Of a stretch of 29,985 bases of DNA, positions 7,908 through 29,985 are shown in pieces. Both the position numbers and the translations under genes were made by a program. This DNA is from a virus: positions 1 through 29,985 of the IMG/VR virus record IMGVR_UViG_3300037584_002951. One strand, given 5' to 3'. The notes under the pieces are model-generated. The model searched no databases, was not told where the DNA came from, and was given only the letters and a program-made list of their open reading frames with translations. Within the stretch, counting starts at the first letter, position 1, and each line of letters begins with the position of its first letter.

Positions 7908-8946
7908 AGTAAAAAGAAAATTTGACTACACGGATAAAAACGACTATGATTTTATTCTTAATCAATCAGAGCGTTCACAACCAATTCAACAATCTTATTA
8001 TACAAAGTTTCTAAGAAGTTTAAAACAAGAGGACTTTGCATATTATCCCAATACAAAAAACTTCAAAGAAAAAATATGTGAATTTTATAATGTCAATACA
8101 GAAAATTTATTTTTAAGCGATGGCTCGGATATCGGTATCAAGTCTATATTTGAAACCTTCACAACTTGTGGCAATATCGTGACTTCCGAGCCGTCCTTTC
8201 CTATGTATCAAGTTTACGCATCATTATATAATTGTCCTTACAAAGGAATACACTATGATTTAGATACAAGACAATTATCAGTAGAACATATGTTAAAGTT
8301 CGTTGATGATGAAACTCAGCTGATTATATTGGCAAATCCAAATAGTCCAATCGGTGATTACAAAACCATAGATGAAATCAAACCATTATTAGATACTGGT
8401 ATTCCGGTATTGATTGATGAAGCATATATAGAATTCTTAGATACTGAGGATTTGTATTATGATAGTTTTATTAAGTATATTAACGAGTATCCAAATCTAA
8501 TTGTAACGAGAACATTTTCAAAAGCATTTGGTGCGGCAGGTTGTAGAGTTGGTATGACTTTTTCTAATCCACACTACATTGAAAATATTTCTAAGTTTAG
8601 ACAAATGTATGAGATATCAGGGGTGTCTATGAAGTATTGTGAATTTCTATTGGATAACTTTCACTTAGTTGATATCTATACACAAGAAATTATTGAGGAA
8701 CGAAAAAAAGTCTTGACATTGATGAAAAACTTTAGTATATTAGATAGTGAGGCAAACTGGATACATTTCAATACTCACGACGATAATCTCAAAACAAAGC
8801 AAATTCTTGATAAACATAAAGTATTAGTAAAGTATTGTAAAGTTCACCCATACGGAAAAAGAAATAATTGGTGTCGTATGACAATACAACCAAACATTAC
8901 AGAACAAGAATTTTTTAAGGAGTTATTAGATGAATATGATAACTAA
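7888..8946 (+). CDS. HisC-like PLP-dependent aminotransferase
   Basis: A 352-aa fold-type I aminotransferase of normal length for the HisC/class I-II group. Visible landmarks: S-D-G-S-D at 77-81 (phosphate-binding region), N-P-N-S-P-I-G at 150-156, the PLP-pyridine Asp177 in I-D-E-A-Y, and T-F-S-K-A-F-G with Lys212 forming the Schiff base. Arg220 and R-M-T-I near the C-terminus may bind a carboxylate. HisC-like enzymes also occur in capsule loci, where they aminate non-histidine substrates. No other histidine genes are near, so histidine synthesis is unlikely. It overlaps the preceding gene by 20 bases. Confidence 0.8.
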   Translation: MKNHLYKVKRKFDYTDKNDYDFILNQSERSQPIQQSYYTKFLRSLKQEDFAYYPNTKNFKEKICEFYNVNTENLFLSDGSDIGIKSIFETFTTCGNIVTSEPSFPMYQVYASLYNCPYKGIHYDLDTRQLSVEHMLKFVDDETQLIILANPNSPIGDYKTIDEIKPLLDTGIPVLIDEAYIEFLDTEDLYYDSFIKYINEYPNLIVTRTFSKAFGAAGCRVGMTFSNPHYIENISKFRQMYEISGVSMKYCEFLLDNFHLVDIYTQEIIEERKKVLTLMKNFSILDSEANWIHFNTHDDNLKTKQILDKHKVLVKYCKVHPYGKRNNWCRMTIQPNITEQEFFKELLDEYDN

Positions 8947-10096
8947 AGAAAGTCAAGAATTATTAGATGAGTTTTTTAAGGAACACAAGTTATTCTTTTG
9001 TGATGATGTTAGTTGGAAGATTTACAAGAAAGATAATTTAGAAACAAGATTAATTTATTTATTTTCTAAATTTGGATTTTTTGAAACTTCACTTAAAGAA
9101 TTAGATGATGAGTATATAGATGAACAAGCTTTTTACAAAAGGGGTGATAATCCAGACTATCACGAAAATAAACGATTTGTTATTCAAGAGGTGGTAGAAG
9201 AAAAGATATGTAATCCAATACACGCAAGCTTTAAACCAAATGACTTTGGACTTGATGTATATGGAAACTTACATAAAACAGCTATTCATCCAGGACACAC
9301 CAGATATGAGTCTTCGGTTTTTTTAAAGAAAAATTTAAAAAAAGGATTTTTCTACATAAGAAAAAAGTATTACAATAATGATGAAATATTCAAGGGTCTA
9401 AAAGAAATGAAATCATTTGAGGATATTATGCAACATTGGACAGAAAGACTATTGACAAAAGAAGAACAAGAAATTAGAGGAGACTCTAATATGTGTGATT
9501 TCATACATTTAATGGATGATGCGAATAACAAATTAAGAAAAACTAAATACCACGACGAAACTGAATGTTATATTTTAAAGTTATGGAATTGGTATTCAAC
9601 TACGATTGATGATATCCCATACGAAAAACTACTTGCAGCACAAAGAATAGATTTATTACATACATCAAGATATTTAGATTACATTAGAGAGTCATCAAAA
9701 GATATAACTAATATTTTATTTGAAAAAAAATTAACGATATATACAGACTCTAATACAGATGTAAAATCATACTTTAAAAATATACAAAAATATCTTTTAC
9801 AAAAAGCCAATGAACAATTACTTTTTGTTACTAACAAACACGAACAATTTGATTTTGATGTAGTGGTGGTAGATAAAAAACCAGACAATATTTCAAAGTT
9901 AAATGGTAGTAAAGGATTTGCAATTTGGATAGATAAAGATATACTTGGTAGTATAACGAGAGACATTTATGAGTTCTTAGTCTTTACAAGAAAAGATATA
10001 AAGTTAGCAGAAACAAAAGACGGAAAAATATCAGTAGTGAATTGTAGAAATACAGGAGATAAAAAGTGGACAATACACAAAGAATTTTATTTATAA
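8930..10096 (+). CDS. Unknown 388-aa protein with 'HPGHTR' motif
   Basis: I do not recognise the family. The start at 8930 is set by AAGGAG seven bases upstream, although a second in-frame ATG is at 8936. Residues 90-145 contain C-N-P-I-H-A-S-F-K-P, then G-N-L-H-K-T-A-I-H-P-G-H-T-R-Y-E-S-S. The order 'PI ... G ... HPGHTR' resembles the ParB/sulfiredoxin-like patch of the protein at 2082. The C-terminal half is charged and contains F-D-F-D-V-V-V-V-D. There is no signal peptide, membrane segment or cysteine cluster. Its place between an aminotransferase and a dehydrogenase suggests a job in the glycan pathway, but this is inference only. Confidence 0.35.
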   Translation: MNMITKESQELLDEFFKEHKLFFCDDVSWKIYKKDNLETRLIYLFSKFGFFETSLKELDDEYIDEQAFYKRGDNPDYHENKRFVIQEVVEEKICNPIHASFKPNDFGLDVYGNLHKTAIHPGHTRYESSVFLKKNLKKGFFYIRKKYYNNDEIFKGLKEMKSFEDIMQHWTERLLTKEEQEIRGDSNMCDFIHLMDDANNKLRKTKYHDETECYILKLWNWYSTTIDDIPYEKLLAAQRIDLLHTSRYLDYIRESSKDITNILFEKKLTIYTDSNTDVKSYFKNIQKYLLQKANEQLLFVTNKHEQFDFDVVVVDKKPDNISKLNGSKGFAIWIDKDILGSITRDIYEFLVFTRKDIKLAETKDGKISVVNCRNTGDKKWTIHKEFYL

Positions 10097-10896
10097 CACC
10101 AGTAAAACATTTAAGTTTGTTTTATAACTATGCTTTACAAAACTATGAAGTGTTGGAATTAATAGAACCAACATATGAAGATGTGAAGAATCAGATAAAA
10201 AACTTTGATATATTATTTTGTGCACCTAATCATCAAACATTTGTTATTGATGAAGATTTAATTAAAGACTCAAACATAAAGTCTATATTGTCACCATCAA
10301 CAGGACTTAATCACATTGATGTTGATTCAGTTCCAATTGTATCGGTAAAGAATGATAAAGTTTTAAATGATGTTTGGTCAACAGCAGAACATACTTTATA
10401 TTTAATATTATCAATAGTTAGAGGAAAACACGAACTACACGATAAAACATTAGGTATTATTGGATATGGAAGACTTGGTAAAATGGTAGAACAATTATGT
10501 AAACCATTATTTAAAAATGTTATTTGTGTTGATAAAGATGATGATATAAGTTTACTTTACATAGAAAGTGATGTAGTTTCACTTCATATGGATTACAATC
10601 CAACAACAGAGTATATGATTGACAATGAGTTTCTAAGTAATTTTAAAAAGAACATTTACTTAATCAACACAGCAAGAGGTGAAGTGGTAAACGAACAAGA
10701 TATAAAACATTTACTATCAGTCGGTAGAATTAAAGGATATGCTACTGATGTATTGCAAACAGAATACAATGAACAGAAGTCAGTATTTTACGGAGTGGAT
10801 TATGTAATCACTACACCACACATAGCAGGAACATCAATAGAAGCACAAGAGAAAACATACAAACGAGTATTGGAGAAATATGAAAATAATAACTGA
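10066..10896 (+). CDS. D-isomer-specific 2-hydroxyacid dehydrogenase
   Basis: A 276-aa NAD(P)-dependent dehydrogenase. It starts at GTG 10066, supported by AGGAG seven bases upstream. The Rossmann motif is I-I-G-Y-G-R-L-G at 131-138. The substrate/catalytic Arg204 is in N-T-A-R-G-E, and the catalytic His252 in T-P-H-I-A-G. It is shorter than full SerA (no ACT regulatory domain) but keeps a complete catalytic core. It would interconvert a 2-hydroxy acid and a 2-keto acid. With the aminotransferase and the HAD phosphatase it makes an oxidise/aminate/dephosphorylate set. It overlaps its upstream neighbour by 31 bases. Confidence 0.8.
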   Translation: MDNTQRILFITPVKHLSLFYNYALQNYEVLELIEPTYEDVKNQIKNFDILFCAPNHQTFVIDEDLIKDSNIKSILSPSTGLNHIDVDSVPIVSVKNDKVLNDVWSTAEHTLYLILSIVRGKHELHDKTLGIIGYGRLGKMVEQLCKPLFKNVICVDKDDDISLLYIESDVVSLHMDYNPTTEYMIDNEFLSNFKKNIYLINTARGEVVNEQDIKHLLSVGRIKGYATDVLQTEYNEQKSVFYGVDYVITTPHIAGTSIEAQEKTYKRVLEKYENNN

Positions 10897-11692
10897 ATTA
10901 TGTCAAAATCACAATGGTGATATTAACACATTAAAAGATATGGTGGTCAAGTCTGCTGAGAGTGGAGCAGACATAGTAAAGATACAATCTATCAAAGCTA
11001 ATTCACTCACTAAACGAGATGAGTTTGAGTCATTTAGAAAGTATTCAGACGAATATAAAAGATTAGCATCATTAGAACTAAGTATGGATGATGAATTAGA
11101 ATTTATACATACAGCAAAAGCTAATAATGTTATACCAATGACAACAATATTTAGTCCCAATCACTATGAATATTATAATTCATTAGGATACGATTATCTA
11201 AAACTTAGTGGATATTCGATGAGAGCATTTGATTGGGGTAAAAAATTAGATAAATTTAATTTCAAACACTTGGTATTTTCTACATCAAGTTTACATTTAC
11301 ACGATATCAAAAAGTGTATTGAGAATTTACAAGGAGTTGATTTCACAATATTACATTGTGTTTGTTTATATCCAACACCATTTGAAAAATTAAACTTATC
11401 ATCAATAGAACATTTGAAAACACTACACGACAAAGTAGGATTCAGCGACCATTCAGATAATTTACTATCAAGTAAACAGGCAATCTTTCAAGGTATTGAT
11501 ATGTTGGAAAGACACTTTACTATATTGGATAAAGAAGAAACAAGAGATGGTAAAGTTTCGGTCACACCAAAAGAATTACAAGAGTTAAAAACATTTAGTA
11601 ATTATACAAAGGAAGGTCAGTATTTAGTATTGAATGGATTTAATGAGGAACAACAATTTAATCACGAGTATTACCAAGGAAGATTTGAATGA
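10880..11692 (+). CDS. neuB: NeuB-like nonulosonic acid synthase lacking the SAF domain
   Basis: A 270-aa TIM-barrel synthase. The signatures are E-L-C-Q-N-H-N-G-D at 6-14 and G-A-D-I-V-K-I-Q at 29-36, then H-C-V-C-L-Y-P-T-P and V-G-F-S-D-H-S, and L-E-R-H-F-T-I near the C-terminus. NeuB enzymes condense phosphoenolpyruvate with an N-acetylated hexosamine-type aldose to make sialic, legionaminic or pseudaminic acid. Typical members have about 340 residues with a C-terminal antifreeze-like (SAF) domain; this one stops after the barrel, with no sign of a frameshift. The product sugar is unknown. The cytidylyltransferase-like protein at 2885 would activate it. Confidence 0.75.
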   Translation: MKIITELCQNHNGDINTLKDMVVKSAESGADIVKIQSIKANSLTKRDEFESFRKYSDEYKRLASLELSMDDELEFIHTAKANNVIPMTTIFSPNHYEYYNSLGYDYLKLSGYSMRAFDWGKKLDKFNFKHLVFSTSSLHLHDIKKCIENLQGVDFTILHCVCLYPTPFEKLNLSSIEHLKTLHDKVGFSDHSDNLLSSKQAIFQGIDMLERHFTILDKEETRDGKVSVTPKELQELKTFSNYTKEGQYLVLNGFNEEQQFNHEYYQGRFE

Positions 11693-12420
11693 TACTACTT
11701 TGTAATGGAGATAGTTGGACACAGGGTGATTCACCTGCACAAGATATAAATTGGGAGTCGGAACCAAACTTGGACTGGTATAATATAGTACCTGATTTTG
11801 GTGAATTCTCTAATCCTTGTGATGATAGAGTTCTTTACAAGTTTTATGATAGTGATGTATGGTCAAAAGTATTAGGTAAAAAACTTGGAATAGAAACTTG
11901 GAATTGTGGTAGGTTGGGTGCAAGTAATGATAGAATCATTAGAACCACAATTAATTCTATCGAGTATTTAGAATCATTGGGTAAAACAGATATATTTGTT
12001 GTGATTGGTTTAACCAGTATAAATCGTTATAGTAATTTAACATCAAATTTCAAATATAATGAATTGAGAGAAGATAAAAAAAGTAATCTTAGTCCGGCAT
12101 TGGTTCAAAGAAATTTAGTGAATTTAATCAATATTCAGAACTATTTATCTATGAAAGGTTATGATTACTTAATATTTAATGCGTTTGATTTTTTGATGGA
12201 AAATGATTTTAAATCTTTACCATTATACCAATACATTAATTTTGACAAAATTTACAACAACGACTTGAAAGCACATTTTAAAAATTATATAGATAATAAA
12301 TTTAATACTAATTGGGATATAAAAGGAAAATACTATAAAACACAACACCCAACAGACTTTTCTCACAATGAGTGGGGTAATGAATTACATAAATACATTA
12401 AGGAGAACTATGATGTTTAA
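11689..12420 (+). CDS. SGNH hydrolase-like protein, copy 3
   Basis: A 243-aa protein. Block I is N-G-D-S-W-T-Q-G with Ser9. The Gly/Asn block is C-G-R-L-G-A-S-N-D-R near 74-84. The C-terminal block is H-P-T-D-F-S-H-N-E-W-G around 220-230, giving Asp and His. It has the same logic as the proteins at 1271 and 7026 but only local resemblance. It is the last enzyme of the glycan run; the next gene begins inside its final codons. The expected role is O-acyl transfer or removal on the glycan. Confidence 0.7.
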   Translation: MILLCNGDSWTQGDSPAQDINWESEPNLDWYNIVPDFGEFSNPCDDRVLYKFYDSDVWSKVLGKKLGIETWNCGRLGASNDRIIRTTINSIEYLESLGKTDIFVVIGLTSINRYSNLTSNFKYNELREDKKSNLSPALVQRNLVNLINIQNYLSMKGYDYLIFNAFDFLMENDFKSLPLYQYINFDKIYNNDLKAHFKNYIDNKFNTNWDIKGKYYKTQHPTDFSHNEWGNELHKYIKENYDV

Positions 12421-12572: not shown

Positions 12573-13439
12573 ATGATTAAACTAAAAAACTTACTATTTG
12601 AATCCAGTATTACAGGACAAACACAGGGTTCTGAAGAGATTGGTGGATATAAAGGTTTCTTTAAACTATCTGAAATGGAAAAGTATAAGAAATGGTTAAA
12701 GAAAACTCTTCGAATAGAATTAGTTGAGGGATTCAAAGACCCAGGTATATTTAAAGCAGTATTTTTAGCAGGTGGACCAGGTTCAGGTAAAACCTACATA
12801 GCAAAGGGTTTATTTGGAATACCAGAAAGAGTCAATGTATCTCAAAGTGGTTTAAAAATGGTTAATTCAGACAAAGAATTAAAATATTTATTAAACAAAT
12901 TTGGATTCGGTACTGACTTAGATTCATTACCAGATGAAGTATTTAAGAACCTTACAGGTGACGGACCACAATCAAGTGGATTGAGAAAGTTCGCAAAAGA
13001 TTTAACCGCAGAAAGAAGAAGATTGTATCAAAACGGAAGACTTGGTATGATTATCGACGGAACCGGAGACGATTTTAAAAAAATCTCGATGGAAAAAGCG
13101 GAATTAGAGAAGATTGGGTATCAAACATATATGATATTCGTAAACACTACATTAGAAGTAGCACTTGAACGAAATGAAAATCGTGATAGAGTATTACCAG
13201 CAAGTATTGTTAAAGCATCACACCAGGAAGTAAATAGAAATGTTGGTGCGTTTCAAGGATTATTTGGTTCAAGTAACTTTATGATTGTTGATAATAATGA
13301 GTACAAAACAGAAGCTCAAGCAAAAAAGAGATTTAAGATGTTGGTGAAACAAGGATTAGGTAAGTTTATAAAGGCACCAATCAAAAGTAAAAAAGCATTG
13401 AGTTGGATTAGAAAACAAAAAATATTAAGGGAAAAATAA
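12573..13439 (+). CDS. Zeta-toxin/polynucleotide-kinase-like P-loop protein with head-targeting leader
   Basis: A 288-aa protein. Walker A is A-G-G-P-G-S-G-K-T at 66-74 (Lys73). I-I-D-G-T-G-D at 160-166 and the arginine-containing R-N-E-N-R-D-R-V-L-P at 200-209 match the zeta-toxin/AAA_33 kinase layout; such kinases phosphorylate sugars, nucleotides or nucleic-acid ends. The N-terminus M-I-K-L-K-N-L-L-F-E|S-S resembles the short capsid-targeting leader of T4 internal proteins, which the prohead protease cuts after hxE. No antitoxin partner is adjacent, so a toxin-antitoxin role is unlikely. AAGGA precedes the start. It is the first gene after the candidate late promoters. Confidence 0.7.
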   Translation: MIKLKNLLFESSITGQTQGSEEIGGYKGFFKLSEMEKYKKWLKKTLRIELVEGFKDPGIFKAVFLAGGPGSGKTYIAKGLFGIPERVNVSQSGLKMVNSDKELKYLLNKFGFGTDLDSLPDEVFKNLTGDGPQSSGLRKFAKDLTAERRRLYQNGRLGMIIDGTGDDFKKISMEKAELEKIGYQTYMIFVNTTLEVALERNENRDRVLPASIVKASHQEVNRNVGAFQGLFGSSNFMIVDNNEYKTEAQAKKRFKMLVKQGLGKFIKAPIKSKKALSWIRKQKILREK

Positions 13440-13931: not shown

Positions 13932-14225
13932 ATGTCATTTTCAGATGTAACACGAGGACAAGCTAGTTTTGTTAGTAGAACAAAGAAAAACCCAAGACCA
14001 AGTTCATTTCACAAAACACACGAAGTAGCAGCGTCAACAACATACGAACCAACAGGTTCATTTAAAAATACTGCATTTTTAGTTGAAACAGGAACTAACT
14101 ACGCACTTACACCAGCAGATGGTGGTGATAACTTGACTGCAGGTTTAGTAACAGGACAAGTTTACAACATCGCTTTGAAAAAAGTTGTTAATGGTTCAAG
14201 TACAGTAGTTCAATTATTAAAATAA
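13932..14225 (+). CDS. Small unknown protein, possible virion component
   Basis: A 97-aa protein with AGGAGA upstream. It is rich in Thr, Ser, Gly and Val in the second half, a beta-type composition (T-G-Q-V-Y-N-I-A-L-K-K-V-V). No signal peptide, cysteine or known motif is seen. The position between the endolysin and the multi-module protein at 14225, and the composition, suggest a minor structural or decoration protein, but this is weak. It overlaps the next gene by one base (TAATG). Confidence 0.55.
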   Translation: MSFSDVTRGQASFVSRTKKNPRPSSFHKTHEVAASTTYEPTGSFKNTAFLVETGTNYALTPADGGDNLTAGLVTGQVYNIALKKVVNGSSTVVQLLK

Positions 14226-15589
14226 TGGACAATGTAGCACAAATAATAAGAGAAACAATCACAGAATTGATTGACGATAGTCGTTGTATTCATTGTGGTT
14301 CAATCACCAATGAAAACTTAAGACAATGGTTTAAGAAAGGTGGAGCCGGAGGAACAACCAAAGGTGGTTGGGACAGATATGGTTCAGAGGGACAGAAACT
14401 CGGTAAGTGTGGTGGTGGAAAAGAAGGTGGTGCATATGCCGCTTGTTTAAGTGCAGAAAAAGCAAAGAAACTCGGTCCAAAAGGTAGAGCGTCATTTGTT
14501 CGTAGAAAGAGAGCAGCACAGAAAAAGGGTGGTGATGCTAAAAAAGGTGGACAAAGAACTAAAAGTAAAAAACCTACCTATGTAAAAACCAAAGCAGAAA
14601 ACACTATGAACGAAAGAAGAAATCTAAAACAATTACTAACTAAAATAAAAGGCGGTAAGATGAATAAGGATATCGCTAAAGACTTGGACAACTTGATAAT
14701 GAAAGACGATGGTTTTGTAGTGATTACAAAATCAAAAAAAGATGGATACAATCGTTTTCACGCTAATAGAGTAGATGATAGAGGTGTTGAGGTTGTTCCA
14801 CATAGTAGAGATTTTAAACCAGGTAAAGTTAGAGGTATGATGAGACACAAACCAGAACATTTGTTAGGAGATGTTAATTGGAAAGATGTTAAAGATATTT
14901 ATATGGAGAATAAAATGAACTTGAAATTAGAAGAATTAGTAGGTAAACCAATTACAGAAGCTCAATTCGATGAAGCCGCCGGAAAGAAAGACGCTTGTTA
15001 TCGTAAAGTGAAAGCCCGATATGATGTATGGCCTTCTGCTTATGCAAGTGGTGCTTTAGTAAAGTGTCGTAAAGTAGGTGCAGCTAACTGGGGAAATAAA
15101 TCTAAAAAAGAAAATGTAAATGAAATTAAGGTTTGGAGTTTAGACGAAAAATGTTGGAAAGGATATGAGAAAAAAGGAACAAAAAAAATGTTCGGTAAAG
15201 TCTATCCTAATTGTGTAAAAAAAGAAGGTGTTCAGACTAATGTTTGGTTAGGTGAGAACGAACTTTATTATGAATCCAACACAGGAGAGTCAGGAGGATA
15301 TTCATTTAATTTTAAAAAAGAAGATGTCAACGAAGCAGAGTATCAAGGAAGAAAAGTAAAACTTGGTAAAATTATGCAAGGTGATACTAAAAAGTTCAAA
15401 GTATATGTTAAAAATCCAAAAGGAAATGTAGTAAAGGTGAACTTTGGTCAAGGTGGTGACGCTAAAGGTGGAACAATGAGAATTAGAAAATCAAACCCAA
15501 AAGCAAGAGCTAACTTTAGAGCAAGACACAATTGTGATAATCCAGGTCCAAGACACAAAGCAAGATATTGGTCTTGTCGTAAATGGTAG
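14225..15589 (+). CDS. Multi-module basic polyprotein, candidate capsid cargo (454 aa)
   Basis: Built from short modules: an N-terminal helix with I-T-E14 and C-I-H-C at 21-24; a Gly/Lys-rich module at 33-101 (resembling DUF5872, from memory); a module after M-N-E130; a leader-like helix at 231-245 ending P-I-T-E|A; a Cys module at 252-290; another at 307-333; and a basic module at 371-454 ending Y-W-S-C-R-K-W. Junctions often carry hxE or NE sites: ITE245|A, FDE250|A, VNE300|I, VNE370|A. T4 gp21 cuts at (I/L)xE, so processing by the protease at 26271 into basic DNA-associated peptides is inferred. Each Cys module has two or more cysteines spaced for small metal or disulfide folds. No enzyme motif is visible. 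Confidence 0.7.
   Translation: MDNVAQIIRETITELIDDSRCIHCGSITNENLRQWFKKGGAGGTTKGGWDRYGSEGQKLGKCGGGKEGGAYAACLSAEKAKKLGPKGRASFVRRKRAAQKKGGDAKKGGQRTKSKKPTYVKTKAENTMNERRNLKQLLTKIKGGKMNKDIAKDLDNLIMKDDGFVVITKSKKDGYNRFHANRVDDRGVEVVPHSRDFKPGKVRGMMRHKPEHLLGDVNWKDVKDIYMENKMNLKLEELVGKPITEAQFDEAAGKKDACYRKVKARYDVWPSAYASGALVKCRKVGAANWGNKSKKENVNEIKVWSLDEKCWKGYEKKGTKKMFGKVYPNCVKKEGVQTNVWLGENELYYESNTGESGGYSFNFKKEDVNEAEYQGRKVKLGKIMQGDTKKFKVYVKNPKGNVVKVNFGQGGDAKGGTMRIRKSNPKARANFRARHNCDNPGPRHKARYWSCRKW
14905..14917 (+). promoter_or_regulatory. Internal ribosome binding site and in-frame ATG
   Basis: GGAGA at 14905-14909 sits five bases before an in-frame ATG (14915, residue 231 of the 454-aa protein). The residues after it, M-N-L-K-L-E-E-L-V-G-K-P-I-T-E|A, look like the leaders at true gene starts nearby. 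It may give a 224-aa shorter product, or mark an old gene start at a fusion point. Confidence 0.4.
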
Positions 15590-15596
15590 GAGAGTT

Positions 15597-18500
15597 ATGT
15601 CAAATAAACTAACAGAATGGTTAGTTAAACCTTTTATCAATGAAGTAGATTTACCAATTAAAGTTGGTGATGATGTATTGATGGGTAGGTTTAAAAACAA
15701 ACGAGTAAAAGTCAAGTCCATTGACTACAATGAGAAGGGTGATTTACTAATTAATGGTCGTCCTGCATTAAAATTTAGATTAGTCAAGGGTGACAAAAAG
15801 TTATTACCGAGTAAAACTACAAAGAAATCATCAGCAGAACCAGACTCAGATAGAAAAGGTGTTGATGATGAATATCCACATCATAAAACAGAATCTAAAT
15901 TACAAGAAGCAGAACCAAAGTTTCAATCAGTCCACACAAGGTCATCATTTAATCAAACATTTGGTGGTTGGTATTCAAATTATGTTCCACTATCCACTAA
16001 ATTTATGCAAAAGATGATAGGTAATACACGAGTAAGTGTATTTCACGTCGGTTCAGCAGAAATGAAAAGAGATATACAACAGGTTGGAAGAATCATTGGT
16101 AAGAAAGGTTCCTTATCTACATTTACCGCAGTTGACAAAGGTGAGAAACTTGCAAAAGGACAAGGGATACAATCCAAAGGTGGTGTTATTTATCAAATAG
16201 AGGGAACTTTATTAGTTGCAAGCACAAGAGATATACAATCCACACCAGATAAAACAGGTCGTAGATGGGTTCCACCAACTAGCTTAGCAGGTAAAGTTGC
16301 TGGTGGTAAAATGTATGATGAATTAAAAAAAGGTATTAAAGCAAATAAACTGGATAGAGACACTTGGAATAGTATAGAAAGAAAAGAAGAAGCAAAGTGG
16401 GAAAAAGAAGTTGATTATTACAGTGATAATTATAAGGGAAGTTATGAAGAAAAAGAAGAAGCATTGAAAAAAATAATGGGCCCATTGAAAAGAAAATGGA
16501 TTAAAAAATATATTGATATGTGTTATAAAATAATGAAAAAATATCAACCACAAATCAAAAGACATATATTAAGTCAAAAAGATAAAGGTTCAGAATACGG
16601 GTGGAACGAAATAGTTGTGAATCAAATTCATATTCAAGATGTATTTTTATTAAAAAGAGTGGGTCAATATAGTAGTATACGAGATGAAGTAGAAAAAATT
16701 GCAAAAGGTACAGTTACCGTAGGTTCACCAGCACAATTTAGAAAGTGGTATAACCAACGAGGTGGTATTATTAATGAAGCAAAAAGAATTCCAAGAAAAA
16801 AAGGACAACATAGAGGTTCTAAATCACATTCAGATTTATACACAGACGAAAATCCAAAAGGAACAATCAAAGGTTTAAAGTTTGCAACCGTCAAGGACGC
16901 AAAGGCATCAGTAAGTAAAATCAGAGGTAGTGGTAAAACACACGCTCACAAAATTCAAGCAGCAGTTGCTATGGAACAACGAGCAAGAGAAATGGGTAAA
17001 ACATCTGAGGCAGCAGTCTATCGTGCTTACATCAACCAAATGAAAAAGAAAACTAAAAAGAAAAATGAATCTGATGAATATACATTTGGACCAGATTATA
17101 TACCAACAAACTTAGCACAAAGAAAAAAGATGAAAAGAATTCATCAAAAAACAAATAGAAGTAGTAGAGTTAGTGGTAGAAAAAACGAAGGTTGGTCAGA
17201 TAAATATAAAAAAAGTATTGATTGTAATAATCCAAAAGGTTTTTCACAAAAAGCACATTGTGACGGAAAGAAGAAAAACGAAAGTTTCTTTGGATTAGGA
17301 CCAGGAGATGTTCCTTCACCAAGTCGTAAAATGGTTAAGAAAATGAAAAAGAAGGGGAACACATCAGTTCCTTATGGTAGTGGATATAAAAAAGTAAACG
17401 AACAAAAAGAAATTAAAAAAGTAATAGCTATTTATCCAGGTAGATTTCAACCATTTGGTCCACATCACAAAAAAGTATATGATGCGTTAAAAAGTAAGTT
17501 CGGTGAAGCATACATCACAACATCAGATATACAACAACCACCAAGACACCCAATGAACTTTAATGAAAAAGTTAAACATATGGTTAAAATGGGAATACCA
17601 AAGAATCGTATCGTAAAAGAAAAAGTTCCTTATGTGGCAAACAACTTATTGAAGAAATTTAATAAAGACACCACAGCAGTAGTTTATGTGTTTGGAGCAA
17701 AGGACGCCGGTAGATTAAAAGGTGGTAAAAAGAAATCAGGTGGATTAACTTACTATCAAGATTTAAAGTCAAATCTAAATAATTTGAAAGGATTTGAAGA
17801 ACACGGATATATTTATGAAGCACCATTTGTAAAAGTTAGTGGTATCTCAAGTGGAACAGAGATTAGAAAATTATTAGGTAGTCCAAAGTTTGATGATAAA
17901 AAAAGACAACAAATATTCAAAAAAACATTTGGATACTTTGATAAGTCCACATATGAAATGATGACTTCCAGATTTAAAAAGTTGTTTGAATTTTTCCAAC
18001 AACCACAAGTAAAAAAACTAATGAAAGAAGTTAGTGGTTTTGGAACAAGTATAAATGCAAGTGATATGTCAGATGAGGGTATGTATGATTTTTTTGGTTC
18101 CTTAGATGATTATTACAGAATATCACCAGAACACGCAGAACATATTGGTTATGAATTGATTGATTTTCCAGTAAGAGATTCTGAGGATATGATGTTTACC
18201 ATTATGGCAGATGAATATGAAAAGGACAGAACCAAAACCGTAACACACGGAAGAACAATTAATCAAAACAGAAAAAATAAAGAATCAGTTGATAACCCAT
18301 TTCCAAAGTATAAAGAACGAATGAGAAAAACATTAGGTGGTCTTGGATTTGAAATAATTAAATACTTTGGTGAAGAGTCATTTACTAAGATGAAAGAATC
18401 ACCACTACTGGCCAAAAAAGATATTGATAAGGGTGTTAGTCATATTAAGAAAGTTCAAGAAGGGTTTATGGAAGATGTTAAATTATTAATAGAAGGTGGA

Positions 18501-19718
18501 GCATACGGACATATGAATCATCCATTTGATGATAATAATTTGATGTTTTCAGATTTGAAGAACATAATTATTATAGGGTTAGAAGGAAAGCTTAATCGTG
18601 AAGATAATGTTTCTGAAAAACTTGATGGACAAAACCTAATGATAAGTTGGGTAGATGGAAAGTTAAAAGCAGCCCGAAACAAAGGTCATCTGAAAAATGG
18701 TGGTAAAACTGCACCAACAACTTCCGGTATAGCAAGTATGTTTGCTGGTAGAGGTAATATTAAAAAGGCATTTGTAGGTGCGATGAGAGATTTAGAAAAA
18801 TCAATAGGTTCTTTATCAGACGCTCAGAAGAAAAAGATTTTTGGTAATGGAACTAAATGGATGAATTTAGAGGTTATATATCCACAAACGAGTAATATAA
18901 TAGACTATGATGTCGCAGAGATTGTATTCCACGGAACTACCGAATATGATATGTCCGGTAGAGCAAAAGGATACTCAAAAGATGCGGCTCGTATGTTACA
19001 AGGTATGATAAAACAAGTAAATCAAAATATACAAAAAACATTCAAGATTAGTAAACCTAACTTTTTGAAAATGAGCAAAGTTCAAGACTTTAGTAAGAAG
19101 AAATCTACATTTTTAAATAAGTTAAATAAACTACAAAGTCAATATGGATTAAAAGATAGTGACAAATTAGGTATGTATCATCAATCTTATTGGCAAGAAT
19201 ATATTTTCAACGCAGCAAAACAATTCAAAGTTAAGTTGAAGAGTAATCAATTAGTAAACTTAACGAATCGTTGGGCATTCTTTGATAAATCATATAGTAT
19301 CGGACAAATTAAAAAAGACTTTAAAGACAATCCACAATTTATTGATTGGATATTAAAGACTGATAAACTTGACCATAACAAAATGTTTAAACAAAATATC
19401 AAACCATTTGAGATATTATTTTTCCAAGTAGGTGCAGAGATATTGAAAAATATGTCAGGTTTCTTAGCGGTATCACCAGACACAGCAGTTCAAAAAATTA
19501 AAAAAGATGTGGACACCGCACTAAAAGATTTACAAAAACCAGATAAAGTAGAAAAATTAAGAAAATTAAAAATACAAATAGAAAAATTAGAAGCTATCGG
19601 TGGTTCGAGTGCAATAGTTCCGAGTGAGGGATTAGTATTTAAATACAAAGGTAATATATACAAATTTACAGGAGCATTTGCACCAATCAATCAAATACTT
19701 GGTAGTTTAAAATTTTAA
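15597..19718 (+). CDS. Giant multi-domain polyprotein: leader, NMNAT-like and ligase-like domains (1373 aa)
   Basis: The start is ATG 15597 with AGGAGA upstream; the open frame reaches back to 15534 but only inside the previous gene. Layout: leader 1-16 ending F-I-N-E|V; small beta module 17-70; unknown domain 105-394; module 395-490 (R-I-P-R-K-K-G-Q, DUF5824-like from memory); Cys module 532-560; nucleotidylyltransferase 603-798 with G-R-F-Q-P-F-G-P-H-H at 615-624 and G-I-S-S-G-T-E-I-R-K at 749-758; linker 799-966; covalent nucleotidyltransferase 967-1373 with E-K-L-D-G at 1007-1011 (Lys1008), W-M-N-L-E-V at 1088-1093, and E-G-L-V-F-K plus Y-K-F-T-G at 1344-1359. The last set fits RNA/DNA ligase or capping enzymes. 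Candidate cuts: LQE104|A, INE394|A, KNE491|S, KNE562|S, VNE602|Q, LIE966|G. It is probably packaged in the head and cleaved by gp21. Confidence 0.75.
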   Translation: MSNKLTEWLVKPFINEVDLPIKVGDDVLMGRFKNKRVKVKSIDYNEKGDLLINGRPALKFRLVKGDKKLLPSKTTKKSSAEPDSDRKGVDDEYPHHKTESKLQEAEPKFQSVHTRSSFNQTFGGWYSNYVPLSTKFMQKMIGNTRVSVFHVGSAEMKRDIQQVGRIIGKKGSLSTFTAVDKGEKLAKGQGIQSKGGVIYQIEGTLLVASTRDIQSTPDKTGRRWVPPTSLAGKVAGGKMYDELKKGIKANKLDRDTWNSIERKEEAKWEKEVDYYSDNYKGSYEEKEEALKKIMGPLKRKWIKKYIDMCYKIMKKYQPQIKRHILSQKDKGSEYGWNEIVVNQIHIQDVFLLKRVGQYSSIRDEVEKIAKGTVTVGSPAQFRKWYNQRGGIINEAKRIPRKKGQHRGSKSHSDLYTDENPKGTIKGLKFATVKDAKASVSKIRGSGKTHAHKIQAAVAMEQRAREMGKTSEAAVYRAYINQMKKKTKKKNESDEYTFGPDYIPTNLAQRKKMKRIHQKTNRSSRVSGRKNEGWSDKYKKSIDCNNPKGFSQKAHCDGKKKNESFFGLGPGDVPSPSRKMVKKMKKKGNTSVPYGSGYKKVNEQKEIKKVIAIYPGRFQPFGPHHKKVYDALKSKFGEAYITTSDIQQPPRHPMNFNEKVKHMVKMGIPKNRIVKEKVPYVANNLLKKFNKDTTAVVYVFGAKDAGRLKGGKKKSGGLTYYQDLKSNLNNLKGFEEHGYIYEAPFVKVSGISSGTEIRKLLGSPKFDDKKRQQIFKKTFGYFDKSTYEMMTSRFKKLFEFFQQPQVKKLMKEVSGFGTSINASDMSDEGMYDFFGSLDDYYRISPEHAEHIGYELIDFPVRDSEDMMFTIMADEYEKDRTKTVTHGRTINQNRKNKESVDNPFPKYKERMRKTLGGLGFEIIKYFGEESFTKMKESPLLAKKDIDKGVSHIKKVQEGFMEDVKLLIEGGAYGHMNHPFDDNNLMFSDLKNIIIIGLEGKLNREDNVSEKLDGQNLMISWVDGKLKAARNKGHLKNGGKTAPTTSGIASMFAGRGNIKKAFVGAMRDLEKSIGSLSDAQKKKIFGNGTKWMNLEVIYPQTSNIIDYDVAEIVFHGTTEYDMSGRAKGYSKDAARMLQGMIKQVNQNIQKTFKISKPNFLKMSKVQDFSKKKSTFLNKLNKLQSQYGLKDSDKLGMYHQSYWQEYIFNAAKQFKVKLKSNQLVNLTNRWAFFDKSYSIGQIKKDFKDNPQFIDWILKTDKLDHNKMFKQNIKPFEILFFQVGAEILKNMSGFLAVSPDTAVQKIKKDVDTALKDLQKPDKVEKLRKLKIQIEKLEAIGGSSAIVPSEGLVFKYKGNIYKFTGAFAPINQILGSLKF

Positions 19719-20595: not shown

Positions 20596-20982
20596 ATGAG
20601 ATATTTAATTTACATATTACTAATCGGGAGTTTATTCGGTCAAGATGTGATTGAACCCAAAACCTACACCTTTACAGAGGAAGAAGTTTTAGGATTTACC
20701 AATACGATTAAAGAACTTGAACTAAAAGATAGTTTAAATGTTTCTTTAGTTGAGGATTTAGAATCACAATTGAAACTTTTTGAAGAAACATCAGTCATAG
20801 ACTCTATGTTGATTGCGAATAAAACGAACCAAATTAATCTACTAAAAGACACCACAAAACTACTTGAACAAAAAGTAAAACTCGTTCAACCTAAATGGTA
20901 TGAAAACAAATGGTTATACTTTACATTTGGGGTAGCTTTGACTGCTACTTCAGTTAAATTAGCAGGTCAAATAGTAGACTAA
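20596..20982 (+). CDS. Exported coiled-coil protein with C-terminal membrane anchor, spanin-like candidate
   Basis: A 128-aa protein. It begins M-R-Y-L-I-Y-I-L-L-I-G-S-L-F-G-Q-D, a signal peptide with likely cleavage after G or Q. There is no cysteine, so it is not a lipoprotein. The middle 75 residues are helical and charged. The end W-L-Y-F-T-F-G-V-A-L-T-A-T-S is a probable transmembrane segment. This topology, periplasmic coil with a C-terminal anchor, resembles unimolecular spanins except for the missing lipid anchor. No ribosome binding site is visible upstream; the 5' region is TATA-rich. It ends in a TAATG overlap with the terminase. Confidence 0.55.
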   Translation: MRYLIYILLIGSLFGQDVIEPKTYTFTEEEVLGFTNTIKELELKDSLNVSLVEDLESQLKLFEETSVIDSMLIANKTNQINLLKDTTKLLEQKVKLVQPKWYENKWLYFTFGVALTATSVKLAGQIVD

Positions 20983-25385: not shown

Positions 25386-26274
25386 GTTAAAAGAACTTAT
25401 CAAACATTTAGTTGTTCAAGAACTAAATAAAGATAAAGAGGTCGATGAAGTCTCTACAACAGCTTCAGCAGGTGCAGCAAATCCTATGGGAACTGGTATT
25501 TACTATGATACTCCTTACGCATTCAGAACTAAAAAGAAAAAAGATAAAGAAAAAATGAAAAAGATTACTCGTGCAGGTGGATACAAACCAGTAAACGAAT
25601 CACAACCATTTGCAGACTTCCCACAATTCCCAAAACTATCAAGAGCACAACAAGAATCTCTTGATGAGTTATTTGGATTTGCAGAATCATATCAGATATT
25701 TAATTCATTCAATAGTAATCCTAAAAAGTTTATCCAAACATTAGACGATATGGCAAAGATTAGAAAAGCATCTAACAAACAACCAAAAGGTGTTAATTTT
25801 AACAAAGGTAAAAAAGAATTCGTTAAAGAAATCACTAATCAAGAAATTAGTGCATTACAAAGTCTTGAAAAAGGTTTAAAGAAACTTCAACAAGATTATA
25901 TCAAGATTACTAAAGTAGGTGATAATACACTCAAAAACAGACAATACAATGATTATTATGAATATATTATAGGAGCTAAAGAAGGAATAGGAAAACTTAT
26001 ACAAACTTTAAAAAGAAAACAAATGTTAGGTGAAGGTCGTTATCACGATTGGAGAAACGACGAATCCCTAACACCAAAACAAAAAATTGGTAAGTCAATG
26101 AGAGAAATTAGAGACGCATTAAATGAATTAGACAAAACCGTAAAGATGAATCTCAAATTAAAAACAGAATTAAAAATGAAGTCAGAAGACTATTGGAAAA
26201 ATACACATAAAGCGTTGACCAAGATTTCAGAAAGATTAGTCAAGATGGCAAACAAAGTAGGAAATTTAAGATGA
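25360..26274 (+). CDS. Head-associated protein with leader-like N-terminus, 304 aa
   Basis: AAGGA lies before ATG 25360. The N-terminal helix K-L-K-E-L-I-K-H-L-V-V-Q-E-L is like other leaders here, followed by V-D-E30|V-S-T-T-A-S-A-G-A-A. A second candidate cut is P-V-N-E80|S. In between is a Gly/Ala-rich patch and a Lys-rich patch. Residues 95-304 are helical with many Lys and Glu, resembling scaffold or internal core proteins. It is encoded directly before the prohead protease (ATGA overlap), the usual place for its substrates. Function is inferred. Confidence 0.6.
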   Translation: MSKHDKVTKLKELIKHLVVQELNKDKEVDEVSTTASAGAANPMGTGIYYDTPYAFRTKKKKDKEKMKKITRAGGYKPVNESQPFADFPQFPKLSRAQQESLDELFGFAESYQIFNSFNSNPKKFIQTLDDMAKIRKASNKQPKGVNFNKGKKEFVKEITNQEISALQSLEKGLKKLQQDYIKITKVGDNTLKNRQYNDYYEYIIGAKEGIGKLIQTLKRKQMLGEGRYHDWRNDESLTPKQKIGKSMREIRDALNELDKTVKMNLKLKTELKMKSEDYWKNTHKALTKISERLVKMANKVGNLR

Positions 26275-26888
26275 AACAAGTTATTGTAGACTATATACCA
26301 TTTAGTTTAACACCAAAACAGATTAATGAATCGATGAAAGAAAACAACGGAAAGTTAGTTGTTAAAGGTGTATTACAAAGAGCAGAAGCAAAAAACCAAA
26401 ACGGACGAGTATATCCAAGAGAGATATTGGTTCGTGAGTCAAAAAAGTATGATAAAAATTTTGTAAAACAGAATAGAGCACTTGGTGAATTAGACCACCC
26501 AGATAGTTCAGTTGTTAATTTAGCAAATGTATCACACAATATTACTGAAATGCACTTTGAGGGTGACAATTTATTAGGTACAGTAGAAATTTTAACAACA
26601 CCAAGTGGTAATATATTGAAAGAATTATTTAAAAATGGTATCAAATTAGGTATCAGTTCACGAGGATTAGGTAGTGTTGAAGTTGTTAGAGAATCCAATG
26701 GAGACCAAGTATCAAAAGTAGGAGATGACTTTGAGTTAATCGCATTTGATTTTGTTTCTAATCCATCAACACACGGAGCATTCTTGTATCCGATGAACGA
26801 ATCAGTAGACAATACACAGACAGGTAGAACTTGTGGTGATTATTGTAGAGCAGAAGATATTATTAATCACATTATAAGGGGTGAGTAA
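26271..26888 (+). CDS. 21: Prohead core protease (T4 gp21-like)
   Basis: A 205-aa serine protease of the T4-type procapsid family. Landmarks: N-G-R-V-Y-P-R at 44-50, catalytic His76 in G-E-L-D-H-P, and the catalytic Ser at 129/130 in G-I-S-S-R-G. The His-Ser distance of about 54 matches the family. It has its own candidate cut sites near both ends, I-N-E20|S and M-N-E187|S, fitting the self-processing known for such proteases. Its expected substrates are the NE-marked proteins encoded on both sides. Its place after portal is the T4 order. Confidence 0.93.
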   Translation: MKQVIVDYIPFSLTPKQINESMKENNGKLVVKGVLQRAEAKNQNGRVYPREILVRESKKYDKNFVKQNRALGELDHPDSSVVNLANVSHNITEMHFEGDNLLGTVEILTTPSGNILKELFKNGIKLGISSRGLGSVEVVRESNGDQVSKVGDDFELIAFDFVSNPSTHGAFLYPMNESVDNTQTGRTCGDYCRAEDIINHIIRGE

Positions 26889-27095: not shown

Positions 27096-28391
27096 ATGAA
27101 AAAACTATCACAATTATTAGAAAGTATTAATGAGATAGATTCTTTATTAGAATTAGACTTTAAAGATAAAAAAGCATTTCAAAAGTATCAGTCAATTCAT
27201 AAAATGAAACCTACGACTAAAGTAAACATCGCAGGTAAAGATACTACCGTAGGTGATGAAATGGGTGATGATAGTGAAACACCAGAAGCACCTAAGAAAA
27301 CAACCGGAGCAGACATTGAAAAACAAGCAGACAAGTCCGGTAAAGAAACAGATGATATTGAAAAAGATATCGCAGGAGACTTAATGGGTGATGAACCTGA
27401 ATCAGAAAAAGCTGATGCCATAGATTCTGCACTAAAAAGAATCAGTAATGAAGTAGATATAGAAGATTTCGAAGGTAGTCCAAATAATTTTGACGCATTA
27501 ATGGATATCGCTTCTGATTTAGAAGATTCACCTATCGGAGATGACGAAGAATTTGGTGATTTGTATGATGATTTAATGGGTAATCAAGATACAGAATCTG
27601 CAGAAAATTTTAAAAAATATTTGGATGACCAATTAAAAGGTGATAAACCTAAATCAGAACCTAAATCACTTTTCTCACAAGTTTCTGATGAAAATAAAGA
27701 TGAATTTATGGATGTTGTTTCTGACATAGATTCTAATTCAGGATTAGATACGATTAATGTAGATAAATCTAAGGGGGGTAGTGGAACATATTATAATAAT
27801 ATCACTCTTCCAGCATTAAAGAAAAAGTTTCCTGGTGGTGGTGATGAGTTTTATGAAGGTATAGACCAAGGTATTGATAGTGCAATAGATTCACTTGGAT
27901 ATATTGAAGATAAAAAACTTAAGAAAAAATTAGAAGATGAACTCTTTACTCTTAGTAATGATATGATGGCAGAACTCGGTGACGATTATGAAGCTGCAGT
28001 TGATGGAGATGGTAAACTACCTTATAAAAAAATGTTACCTTATTTAGAGAAATTAGACAAATTTAAGAAAGAACATTTTTCTGATGAGTCAAAATCTAAA
28101 GATGAACCTACTACTAAATTTCAAGGGAGAACTATTCCAAAAGCTCCAAAATATGATACTAAAAAGAAAACAGGAAGTAAAAAACCAAGTTCATTGGATA
28201 GTTACTACGCTAAGGAAGACGCAAAGAAAAAATGGCTTTCAAGTAATCCAGGCAAAACATCATATGATTGGAGTCGTCTACCATACGGAACAATGTCAGA
28301 TTTAATTGATAAAGAAATGAAAGCTAGAGGGTTTAAAGAAAATACTAATTTAAAAGAATTATCCAAAATTACAACGAGGTATAACAAATGA
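27096..28391 (+). CDS. Acidic head-core-like protein with cleavable leader, 431 aa
   Basis: The start M-K-K-L-S-Q-L-L-E9|S-I-N-E13|I gives two overlapping candidate protease sites in a short helix, like the T4 internal-protein leader. Residues 27-53 form a basic module ending in T-K-V-N-I-A-G-K-D-T-T-V-G-D. Residues 55-215 are very acidic (many Asp/Glu, few aromatics). The last 100 residues are Lys-rich with a W-L-S-S-N-P-G-K-T-S-Y-D-W-S-R-L-P motif. In T4 the next gene after 21 is the acidic scaffold gene 22, so this may play the scaffold role, but sequence similarity is not evident by eye. Confidence 0.55.
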   Translation: MKKLSQLLESINEIDSLLELDFKDKKAFQKYQSIHKMKPTTKVNIAGKDTTVGDEMGDDSETPEAPKKTTGADIEKQADKSGKETDDIEKDIAGDLMGDEPESEKADAIDSALKRISNEVDIEDFEGSPNNFDALMDIASDLEDSPIGDDEEFGDLYDDLMGNQDTESAENFKKYLDDQLKGDKPKSEPKSLFSQVSDENKDEFMDVVSDIDSNSGLDTINVDKSKGGSGTYYNNITLPALKKKFPGGGDEFYEGIDQGIDSAIDSLGYIEDKKLKKKLEDELFTLSNDMMAELGDDYEAAVDGDGKLPYKKMLPYLEKLDKFKKEHFSDESKSKDEPTTKFQGRTIPKAPKYDTKKKTGSKKPSSLDSYYAKEDAKKKWLSSNPGKTSYDWSRLPYGTMSDLIDKEMKARGFKENTNLKELSKITTRYNK

Positions 28392-28648
28392 TTAAATTAA
28401 AAGAAGTGTTGAAAAAACAAATAAATGAAGCACCAGAACAACACGAAGTCTATGAAGCTCTTCAAAAGATAGTTGCCGGATTAGATGACGCGGAGTATGG
28501 TATTAATGATTTAGGTAGAATAAACTTTGAAAGTAGAGATAAGTCACAAGCAAAGAAAATTGTAAAAGATTTTAAATCATTACTAAAGTTAACTAACAAA
28601 TTTTACTCAGATGTTGATAGAGGTAAAATAAAAACATCAGAATTTTAA
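28388..28648 (+). CDS. Small head protein with cleavable leader, 86 aa
   Basis: The N-terminus M-I-K-L-K-E-V-L-K-K-Q-I-N-E14|A closely resembles the leader of the kinase-like protein at 12573 (M-I-K-L-K-N-L-L-F-E|S). The rest is a compact helical, charged domain (about 70 residues). Cleavage after Glu14 would release a mature 72-residue protein. It is a candidate internal head protein. ATGA overlap with the preceding gene. Confidence 0.6.
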   Translation: MIKLKEVLKKQINEAPEQHEVYEALQKIVAGLDDAEYGINDLGRINFESRDKSQAKKIVKDFKSLLKLTNKFYSDVDRGKIKTSEF

Positions 28649-29985
28649 ATGCCAGCACTTAGTAAAAAGCAACAAAAATTTATGGGGATTGTAAGGTCAA
28701 TCCAAAAAGGAGAACAACCGGCTTCTAAGTTTTCCAAAGACGCAAGAGATGCGGCAAAAGATATGAAGAAGTCAAGTGTAAAGAAATTTGCAGGAACAAA
28801 ACACAAAGGACTACCAATGAAGAAAGAGATTTTGGGTAAACTCAAAGAGTTAATCAGACAAGAATTATCTGAATACACATATGGAACAGGTGATGTCGTT
28901 AAAGATGTTAATCCAAGTTGTCCACATTATGGTGCTGAGGGTAAAGTAAAATCCGTAAATCCAAAAAGTGTTGTGTTCGTCGTAACGAACAAAGGAAAGA
29001 ATTTTAAACCAGGTATGGAGTTGGAAAAATCACACGACCAAATGAAAAAAATGAATGAATCAATAAACGAAAATAGAGATTTTGAAAAGTTGTATAAGTT
29101 ATTTTCAAAAAAAGATTACTTCGGTCTAAAAGGGGTAATGAAAACACAACTGGGTAATTACAAAAGAGCACTTAAAAAAGGTGATAAAGGTGCACAAAAA
29201 TATTCTGAAAAAGATGTAATCAATATGGTTAATCGTATGATTAAAAATAGAGCTAAATTTACTTATGATGAATTAGAAAAGGCAATAAAGAACAAAGATA
29301 TCAAAGCATTAAAATCTAAATTACGACACAACCAACCATATTCAATCGCAATATTTAACCAAATAACAGGTAAAAAACTACCTAAAAACACTCGTGACAT
29401 TCGTTCATTTTTAGACGATGAGTTTATGAATGAATCAATAAACGAGATGTCAGCAAAATCTAAAAAGATTATCAGTAAATTAGGTAAGAAAGAAAAAGAA
29501 ATGTTTATGGATATGGTTGATATGTTAGGGTTTGACCAAGTAATGGCAGACTACAAAAGAGACAAGAAAGCATTTAAACAAGCATTAAAAGATATGAGTG
29601 AAGGATTCGCCTCAGCGGCTCAAAGACGAGCAGCATTTGCAAGTGGATACAAAGCCAAAGGTAAAAAGAAAAAGAAAAATGAAAGTATCATCAAAGAAAG
29701 AAATGATGAAGTTCAAACAGGTAAAGAATACACAAAACTTTGGTTACAATCAATAAACTTGATAATCAAACAAGCTAATAGTTTAAAAGGTGAATTAGCA
29801 AAACACCCAATCAAAAGAGATTTGAATAAACTAAAAGCAGTTCAAAACTTATTTAAGAAGTTTATCAAACCAGCAGTAGAACAAGAAGGTAAAGACAATA
29901 GACATTATGCACCGAACCAAACAGAACTAAGAAAATATTTATCAGATGGTAAATTCAAAATCGCTACAAGAATTTTAAGACAAAC
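28649..29985 (+). CDS. Multi-module polyprotein, candidate capsid cargo, 3' end missing
   Basis: An open frame of 445 codons that continues past the window; it begins directly after the previous stop. Modules: 1-56 with S-K-K-Q-Q-K-F-M-G and K-H-K-G-L-P (DUF3008-like, from memory); a leader-like helix 57-75 (M-K-K-E-I-L-G-K-L-K-E-L-I-R-Q-E-L); a beta module 77-130 (Y-G-T-G-D-V-V-K-D-V-N-P, SH3/KOW-like look); helical modules 142-259 and 267-315; F-A-S-A-A-Q-R-R-A-A-F at 320-330 followed by poly-Lys; and a last helical part. Linkers M-N-E-S-I-N-E occur at 135-141 and 260-266, and K-N-E344|S later, matching the expected protease sites. No enzyme motif seen so far. Confidence 0.65.
   Translation, partial: MPALSKKQQKFMGIVRSIQKGEQPASKFSKDARDAAKDMKKSSVKKFAGTKHKGLPMKKEILGKLKELIRQELSEYTYGTGDVVKDVNPSCPHYGAEGKVKSVNPKSVVFVVTNKGKNFKPGMELEKSHDQMKKMNESINENRDFEKLYKLFSKKDYFGLKGVMKTQLGNYKRALKKGDKGAQKYSEKDVINMVNRMIKNRAKFTYDELEKAIKNKDIKALKSKLRHNQPYSIAIFNQITGKKLPKNTRDIRSFLDDEFMNESINEMSAKSKKIISKLGKKEKEMFMDMVDMLGFDQVMADYKRDKKAFKQALKDMSEGFASAAQRRAAFASGYKAKGKKKKKNESIIKERNDEVQTGKEYTKLWLQSINLIIKQANSLKGELAKHPIKRDLNKLKAVQNLFKKFIKPAVEQEGKDNRHYAPNQTELRKYLSDGKFKIATRILRQ
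28805..28819 (+). promoter_or_regulatory. Internal ribosome binding site and in-frame ATG
   Basis: AAAGGA at 28805-28810 is six bases before the in-frame ATG at 28817 (residue 57). A leader-like helix follows. As at 14905, this falls exactly between two modules, so it may be a second start or the remnant of a fused gene. Confidence 0.4.
29051..29070 (+). repeat. Direct repeat, first copy (linker-coding)
   Basis: The 20 bases atgaatgaatcaataaacga occur again at 29426-29445, in the same frame. They encode M-N-E-S-I-N-E, a double protease-site linker between modules. Confidence 0.85.
29426..29445 (+). repeat. Direct repeat, second copy (linker-coding)
   Basis: Identical over 20 bases to 29051-29070, 375 bases away (125 codons). 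It flanks the module between residues 142 and 259 of the protein at 28649, so recombination between copies could delete or swap exactly one module in frame. Confidence 0.85.

Follow-up and report, generated by a model that had tools for sequence, protein, structure and literature searches.

Two adjacent multi-module genes in a T4-like phage contig as candidate fusions of internal head proteins with prohead-protease-type joints

The window analysed here, a contig of 29,985 bases that appears to come from a marine T4-like virus (IMG/VR record IMGVR_UViG_3300037584_002951), carries two adjacent genes upstream of its terminase gene whose products appear as chains of short modules. The initial annotation had proposed that these products are polyproteins, packed into the prohead and diced there by the prohead protease at glutamate residues between the modules. 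Both open reading frames are real, and we refer to their products as polyprotein 1 and polyprotein 2. Their features are as follows (↓, putative cut; h, hydrophobic residue).

14225..15589, + strand: polyprotein 1, 454 amino acids; basic Cys-containing modules; matches to PHROG 727, 38880 and 7595
14957..14959, + strand: putative cut site ITE245↓A, at the end of a former leader, MNLKLEELVGKPITE
14972..14974, + strand: putative cut site FDE250↓A
15332..15334, + strand: putative cut site VNE370↓A, ahead of the C-terminal module
15597..19718, + strand: polyprotein 2, 1373 amino acids
15597..15644, + strand: N-terminal leader MSNKLTEWLVKPFINE↓, residues 1-16, similar to the T4 capsid-targeting sequence; E16 present in 13/13 alignable relatives
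15645..15908, + strand: small beta-rich module (AF2 model), residues 17-104, ending LQE104↓A
15909..16778, + strand: module of residues 105-394, ending INE394↓A; directly after the leader MIKLKDLLKE↓ in relative L048
16779..17069, + strand: RIPRKKGQ module, residues 395-491, ending KNE491↓S
17070..17189, + strand: YTFGPD module, residues 492-531, ending KNE531↓G
17190..17282, + strand: WSDKYKKSIDCNNPKG module, residues 532-562, ending KNE562↓S
17283..17402, + strand: PSPSRK module, residues 563-602, ending VNE602↓Q
17403..18461, + strand: NMN-adenylyltransferase-like (NMNAT-like) domain and linker, residues 603-955, ending VQE955↓G
18462..18494, + strand: leader-like peptide GFMEDVKLLIE↓, residues 956-966
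18495..19715, + strand: KxDG nucleotidyltransferase/RNA-ligase-like domain, residues 967-1373

All ten Glu sites listed in the initial annotation are present (ITE245, FDE250 and VNE370 in polyprotein 1; INE16, LQE104, INE394, KNE491, KNE562, VNE602 and LIE966 in polyprotein 2), and we found two further candidates in polyprotein 2, KNE531↓G and VQE955↓G. The form hxE↓ is fitted by sites 245, 250 and 370 of polyprotein 1 and by sites 16, 104, 394, 602, 955 and 966 of polyprotein 2. An earlier count by eye of 11 NE(S/A) motifs in the window proved exact; all lie in head or multi-module proteins, and none in the glycan enzymes (4196 residues) or in the terminase, the portal and their neighbours. 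The two polyproteins contain 4 such motifs against 0.6 expected from residue shuffles (P 0.0025) and the other head-region genes contain 7 against 1.0 expected, a number reached by 0/2000 shuffles. The reversed control EN(S/A) was not enriched, with 0 occurrences across the head groups. The motif statistics of the window alone are moderate, and it is the homologues that appear to provide strong evidence.

Relatives of polyprotein 2 are encoded in 360 stretches of viral contigs. Their C-terminal part, with the NMNAT-like and ligase-like domains, is stable, and the part before it is made up of exchangeable modules, which in some relatives include a P-loop kinase (Zeta_toxin/AAA_33), a CCA-adding/poly(A)-polymerase-like enzyme (PolyA_pol, E 1.8e-30) and an NTN hydrolase (AAT, E 4.7e-6). 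Upstream of the terminase gene, homologues swap, insert and delete modules, with breaks that coincide with E↓ sites. An unbiased scan of the breakpoints of BLAST alignments between homologues showed a 3.4-fold enrichment of hxE(S/A/G/N/Q) and a 3.3 to 5-fold enrichment of NE(S/A/G/Q), with the controls NK and KN at 0.7-0.8 and D(S/A) below expectation. The RIPRKK module is preceded by Glu at -1 (E↓AxR) in 14/14 distinct, unrelated upstream contexts, and Glu likewise stands before the kinase module (E↓GxNDPG, 7/7), GFGG (6/6) and FGAPAG (6/6). In a fresh set of contigs, where Glu was scored if it lay ≤6 residues upstream of the module start, it was found in 37/38 contexts for RIPRKx, 14/14 for WSxKYKK and 18/18 for CWKGY, compared with a background of 26-30%.

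The alignment of homologues, proposed with the initial annotation as a check, thus placed the E↓ sites at module borders, where they are conserved while the flanking modules change. E966 is retained in 26/30 relatives, E955 in 24/25 and E394 in 19/19, and E370 of polyprotein 1 is kept as INE↓AEYQGR, LQE↓AEYQGR or LNE↓AEYQGR. A look-alike within the folded nucleotidyltransferase domain, E741, does vary and is kept in 5/30 relatives, as opposed to the 26/30 of E966. Site 966 is also the exact point at which a module of ~340 residues is inserted in L100 and L076, flanked by IE↓A and LILE↓G.

Phage T4 gp21 cuts at (I/L)xE↓, stripping leaders from packaged internal proteins. The T4 capsid-targeting sequence is such a leader, of 10-20 residues, removed by gp21 (PMC5694885, PMC3012670). 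The relatives of the window contain a leader that matches that of T4 ipII/ipIII, MKTYQEFIAE↓A, in length and shape: stand-alone versions of the modules and many small head-region genes start with the 10-residue MIKLKxLLxE↓, and M(I/A)KLKxLLxE↓ (pattern M..KLxx(L/I)(L/I)xE) begins 91/1048 complete open reading frames of relatives as opposed to 2/6609 internal Met positions. In the window the (I/L)xE↓ form is found in MSNKLTEWLVKPFINE↓ of polyprotein 2 and in MIKLKNLLFE↓ of a P-loop kinase gene; for the N-terminus of polyprotein 1 (MDNVAQIIRETITEL...ITNE) the fit is less clear. Candidate capsid-targeting leaders of the window include MIKLKNLLFES and MSNKLTEWLVKPFINEV.

The same modules occur after true leaders and at internal joints. 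One of them follows a true leader in L048 (MIKLKDLLKE↓SPAKFQSVH) and an internal junction in L057 (HYKLKE↓SPAKFQSVH), and a leader of the kind found at the N-terminus of polyprotein 2 is placed directly ahead of another module in L080. A 579-residue fusion (L143:10026-11765) contains an intact internal leader, TRE↓GMIKLKDVLRE↓SKVSYL, and other contigs carry its second half as a gene of its own with a leader. Polyprotein 1 itself is a fusion of genes kept apart in relatives L019, L017, L012 and L041; the counterpart of its region at ITE245 in L019 is a separate gene beginning MKLEELVGKSITE↓AQFDE↓AAG. In cyanophage-like contigs some internal joints read FQQFQE↓ or FQDFIYE↓ and resemble the way in which Synechococcus phage Bellamy gp122 begins, with the leader MKSFKQFQE↓SWSNKYKK; the WSDKYKKSIDCNNPKG module stands alone in Bellamy with the leader MKSFKQFQE↓. 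Because modules follow either true leaders or internal joints, and because leaders are found embedded, the comparison suggests that internal joints act as leader ends or once did so. Several small proteins beside the head genes of Flavobacterium phage immuto (L170) start MRLLELLRE↓A, MADNFNLRSFLTE↓N and MENFDLKKFLVE↓N, which suggests that the leader rule extends to Bacteroidota phages.

A candidate protease is encoded in the same head operon:

26271..26888, + strand: prohead protease gp21 (Peptidase_S77, Pfam E 1.9e-27), aligned with T4 gp21

Motifs of this type lie close to both termini of gp21 itself: INE20↓S and MNE177↓S in the window, and more generally INE↓S/A or ITE↓A on the N-terminal side and MNE↓S or QE↓S on the C-terminal side. 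In the relatives' gp23, LIQE↓A, LIDE↓A, LISE↓A or IVSE↓A is aligned with FLTE↓A of T4 gp23, which we take to be its cut position. The cognate S77 protease is therefore likely to share the specificity of the T4-type enzyme.

The predicted products include enzymes. The NMNAT-like domain matches Pfam CTP_transf_like in 31/31 members (best 1.7e-9), and a model of residues 599-1373 matches NMNAT/NadM in Foldseek (2r5w, E 4e-4, prob 1.00). The KxDG domain has a weak match to Pfam RNA_ligase in 9/31 members (best 0.027), a largely invariant SEKLDGQN motif and a conserved EGLVFK-type motif, and may tentatively be called a ligase-like nucleotidyltransferase. Pfam and NCBIfam searches returned no names for most small modules. 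A search for a PDB fold match to module 105-394 found none; an ADP-ribosyltransferase (T4 Alt-like) identity, raised by STF/RV motifs seen by eye, had neither a Pfam nor a PDB fold match and was dropped. For the N-terminal beta-rich module, an HVA1/Tudor identity was seen by eye only and is not claimed. In an AF2 model of residues 1-610 (pLDDT 60.7), all seven sites fall in segments with pLDDT<50, predicted to be disordered, compared with 11/29 other Glu residues (Fisher P 0.004).

Evidence from virions comes from a cultured cyanophage. The cytidylyltransferase GC190 was detected in purified virions of Synechococcus phage S-SM1 (PMC3037559). Its sequence begins MKKFSAFLNE↓A, and a neighbouring gene carries a KxDG ligase-like motif. 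Homology between GC190 and the polyprotein 2 nucleotidyltransferase was considered and rejected at the sequence level, with just 35% over 57 amino acids and no profile hit; given this weak similarity, we use GC190 as an analogue and not as an orthologue. Bellamy gp123 (L176:2629-4485) and S-SM1 GC119 (L177:38537-40024) are multi-module 'hypothetical' proteins adjoining terminase genes; they contain homologous modules joined at E↓. A search of the open-access literature for virion proteomics of Pelagibacter phages gave no match.

Taken from sequence, the sites, the leaders, the shuffling at E↓ and the location of sites in predicted linkers make it likely that the products of the two genes are gp21-cleavable polyproteins, built by fusion of T4-type internal (head cargo) proteins. 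The comparison thereby supports the earlier interpretation of packed and diced chains, in which cleavage and packaging are the inferred steps. To judge from the shape of the leader, a short N-terminal peptide ending hxE↓ would direct the whole chain into the core of the prohead. Next, the S77 protease gp21 would remove the leader and, as the conservation of the sites suggests, cut E↓(A/S/G) between modules. Products released in the head would be the small basic modules, the NMNAT-like enzyme and the ligase-like nucleotidyltransferase, to which the relatives would add the P-loop kinase, the CCA-adding-like enzyme and the NTN hydrolase. By the precedent of T4 and P1, the released proteins would be delivered to the host together with the DNA. 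Fusion and shuffling of individually leader-bearing genes may have given rise to the polyproteins. From the domain content we guess that the cargo acts in the opening minutes of infection, serving nucleotide/NAD or RNA repair as well as counter-defence.

A broader version, which could equally well prove right or wrong, is a plug-in delivery system in which any module bracketed by hxE↓ can be added to a head-targeted chain, so that one leader packs it, the capsid-maturation protease releases it and injection follows. Marine T4-like phages would then share dozens of interchangeable modules as a pre-made, fast-evolving kit, with enzymes for NAD/RNA repair and counter-defence alongside small proteins that bind DNA or RNA.

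Several observations weigh against cargo polyproteins cut by gp21. KNE491, KNE531 and KNE562 have no hydrophobic P3 residue and so break the T4 P3 rule, which makes these three more doubtful as cut sites than those of hxE↓ form. Site 966 is lost (LLLM↓GG) in 4/30 relatives, and in the fresh set the KDACY module has Glu near its start in only 12/18 contexts (background 36%). The leader pattern was selected after inspecting the data, the AF2 models are of only moderate confidence (pLDDT 61-64), and Glu could be conserved as the first residue of modules for some other reason. Virion detection is confined to the analogue GC190 of S-SM1, outside this clade, and S-SM1 GC119, the cyanophage counterpart of polyprotein 1, is annotated as hypothetical and not as virion structural.

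The alternative that survives best, though we consider it unlikely, is a multidomain protein of the polyvalent type that is packaged without being diced: it would lose its N-terminal leader and nothing else, and the E-rich joints would serve to link modules flexibly. Proteins of the polyvalent type are established cargo of phage heads, and packaging in uncut form is described for some of them, N4 vRNAP included (PMC5512222); the position of all sites in predicted disorder is also expected of any linker. What linkers do not explain is that the joints carry one specific residue, Glu, usually ahead of a small residue, with control dipeptides not enriched, that internal joints equal leader ends, and that Glu was found in 37/38 fresh-sample contexts.

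It is also improbable, and rather more so, that the chain is a scaffold or core protein which gp21 dices into fragments that mostly exit the head, like T4 gp22, gp67 and gp68. Many modules are indeed short and basic, and T4 core proteins are cut to short fragments that exit the capsid (PMC5694885), but enzyme domains with conserved catalytic motifs and the exchange of enzyme modules are unlike scaffolds, and relatives hold a separate gp22-like gene ahead of gp23. That the proteins are late-expressed intracellular enzymes with chance motif matches is very improbable: the two virion-related points above would agree with it, but the leader statistics, the position beside terminase and protease, and the detection in virions of the leader-bearing GC190 argue otherwise. 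Least credible are joints that are mere scars of gene fusion or DNA recombination; polyprotein 1 does fuse genes separate in relatives and old start regions persist at joints (L143), but Glu is kept at sites 966, 955 and 394 while its neighbours diverge and both GAA and GAG encode it at the junctions, so that selection acts on the protein and a DNA-level recombination motif is disfavoured.

Reading the chains as gp21-processed cargo places them near several known systems. T4 IPI-III and Alt share the 10-residue amphipathic leader ending hxE↓(A/S), the S77 protease, the head operon and exchangeable, early-acting cargo; there, one protein per gene receives one cut, whereas here a multi-module chain with joint sites and nucleotide/RNA enzymes is predicted from sequence. 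Polyvalent proteins (Iyer et al. 2017, PMC5512222) are likewise long proteins in which enzyme domains related to conflict have been shuffled; they are injected along with DNA and are likened there to polyproteins. Several enzyme or conflict domains per chain are found here too (NMNAT-like and ligase-like, with kinase, CCA-adding-like and NTN hydrolase domains in relatives). The release of polyvalent proteins is thought to be due to an embedded metallopeptidase; the cutter proposed here is a separate S77 prohead protease acting at leader-like joint sites, and profile searches for peptidase domains, including an embedded metallopeptidase, found no match in either polyprotein. Prohead proteases of SPN3US and phiKZ cut some head proteins with long propeptides at several sites (PMC10052503, PMC5694885); these multiple cuts strip a propeptide from one mature protein, whereas here the pieces between predicted cuts are modules. 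Phage P1 DarA, DdrB and DarB are head-packaged defence cargo, some of it proteolytically processed, with an N-terminal packaging signal (PMC9024508), but no shared leader consensus was found among them and no modules split by repeated cut sites have been reported. A further comparison is with cyanophage T4-GC190, S-SM1 GC119 and Bellamy gp123, which provide a leader-bearing virion cytidylyltransferase and homologous small E↓-jointed modules beside head genes; in S-SM1 the cytidylyltransferase and the KxDG ligase-like gene are separate neighbours, whereas the window fuses both kinds in one chain. The initial annotation had called such a cargo polyprotein not well described, which is only partly right, since T4 internal proteins, P1 Dar proteins, the multi-site propeptide cutting of SPN3US and the polyvalent concept precede it; we found no cargo polyprotein diced by a prohead protease in the open-access literature searched.

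If gp21 does process these chains, capsid maturation in a tailed phage would have a second role, the processing of polyproteins, which is usually linked to RNA viruses. Injected cargo could then be recognised from sequence by a simple rule, a leader plus E↓ joints, in the very abundant marine T4-like phages, whose head-region genes are mostly 'hypothetical'. It would also suggest that enzymes of nucleotide repair are delivered ahead of any phage gene expression.

The terminase of the window is 53-54% identical to those of Microcystis phage Mel-JY01 and Flavobacterium phage immuto, which places the source among T4-like phages outside the well-studied genera. From left to right the window holds a glycan-modification island (1-12420), the P-loop kinase, an endolysin, a small gene, polyproteins 1 and 2, three small genes, the terminase (20982), the portal (22567), two head proteins, gp21 (26271) and more head-region genes. 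Three of these are of note:

12573..13439, + strand: P-loop kinase gene, Zeta_toxin/AAA_33 match, beginning MIKLKNLLFE↓SS
28388..28648, + strand: small head-region protein with leader MIKLKEVLKKQINE↓A
28649..29983, + strand: third multi-module protein, running off the contig end, with MNE137↓S, MNE262↓S and KNE345↓S

The kinase, a gene of its own in the window, is a module inside polyprotein 2 of relatives L063, L054, L055 and L080. Relatives' versions of the third multi-module protein are 390-790 amino acids long; their modules vary, and they have as many as six NE(S/A/G) sites. A small protein just upstream of the terminase (20596-20982), conserved in 108 open reading frames of relatives, begins like a signal peptide (MRYLIYILLIGSLFGQ), contains a hydrophobic stretch in its C-terminal part and possibly has a membrane or lysis role. 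Within the glycan island, genes named by eye are NeuB-like (10880), cytidylyltransferase-like (2885), nucleotidyltransferase (3812), radical SAM (6055), aminotransferase (7888), dehydrogenase (10066) and HAD-like (3535), together with three SGNH-hydrolase-like reading frames (1271, 7026 and 11689).

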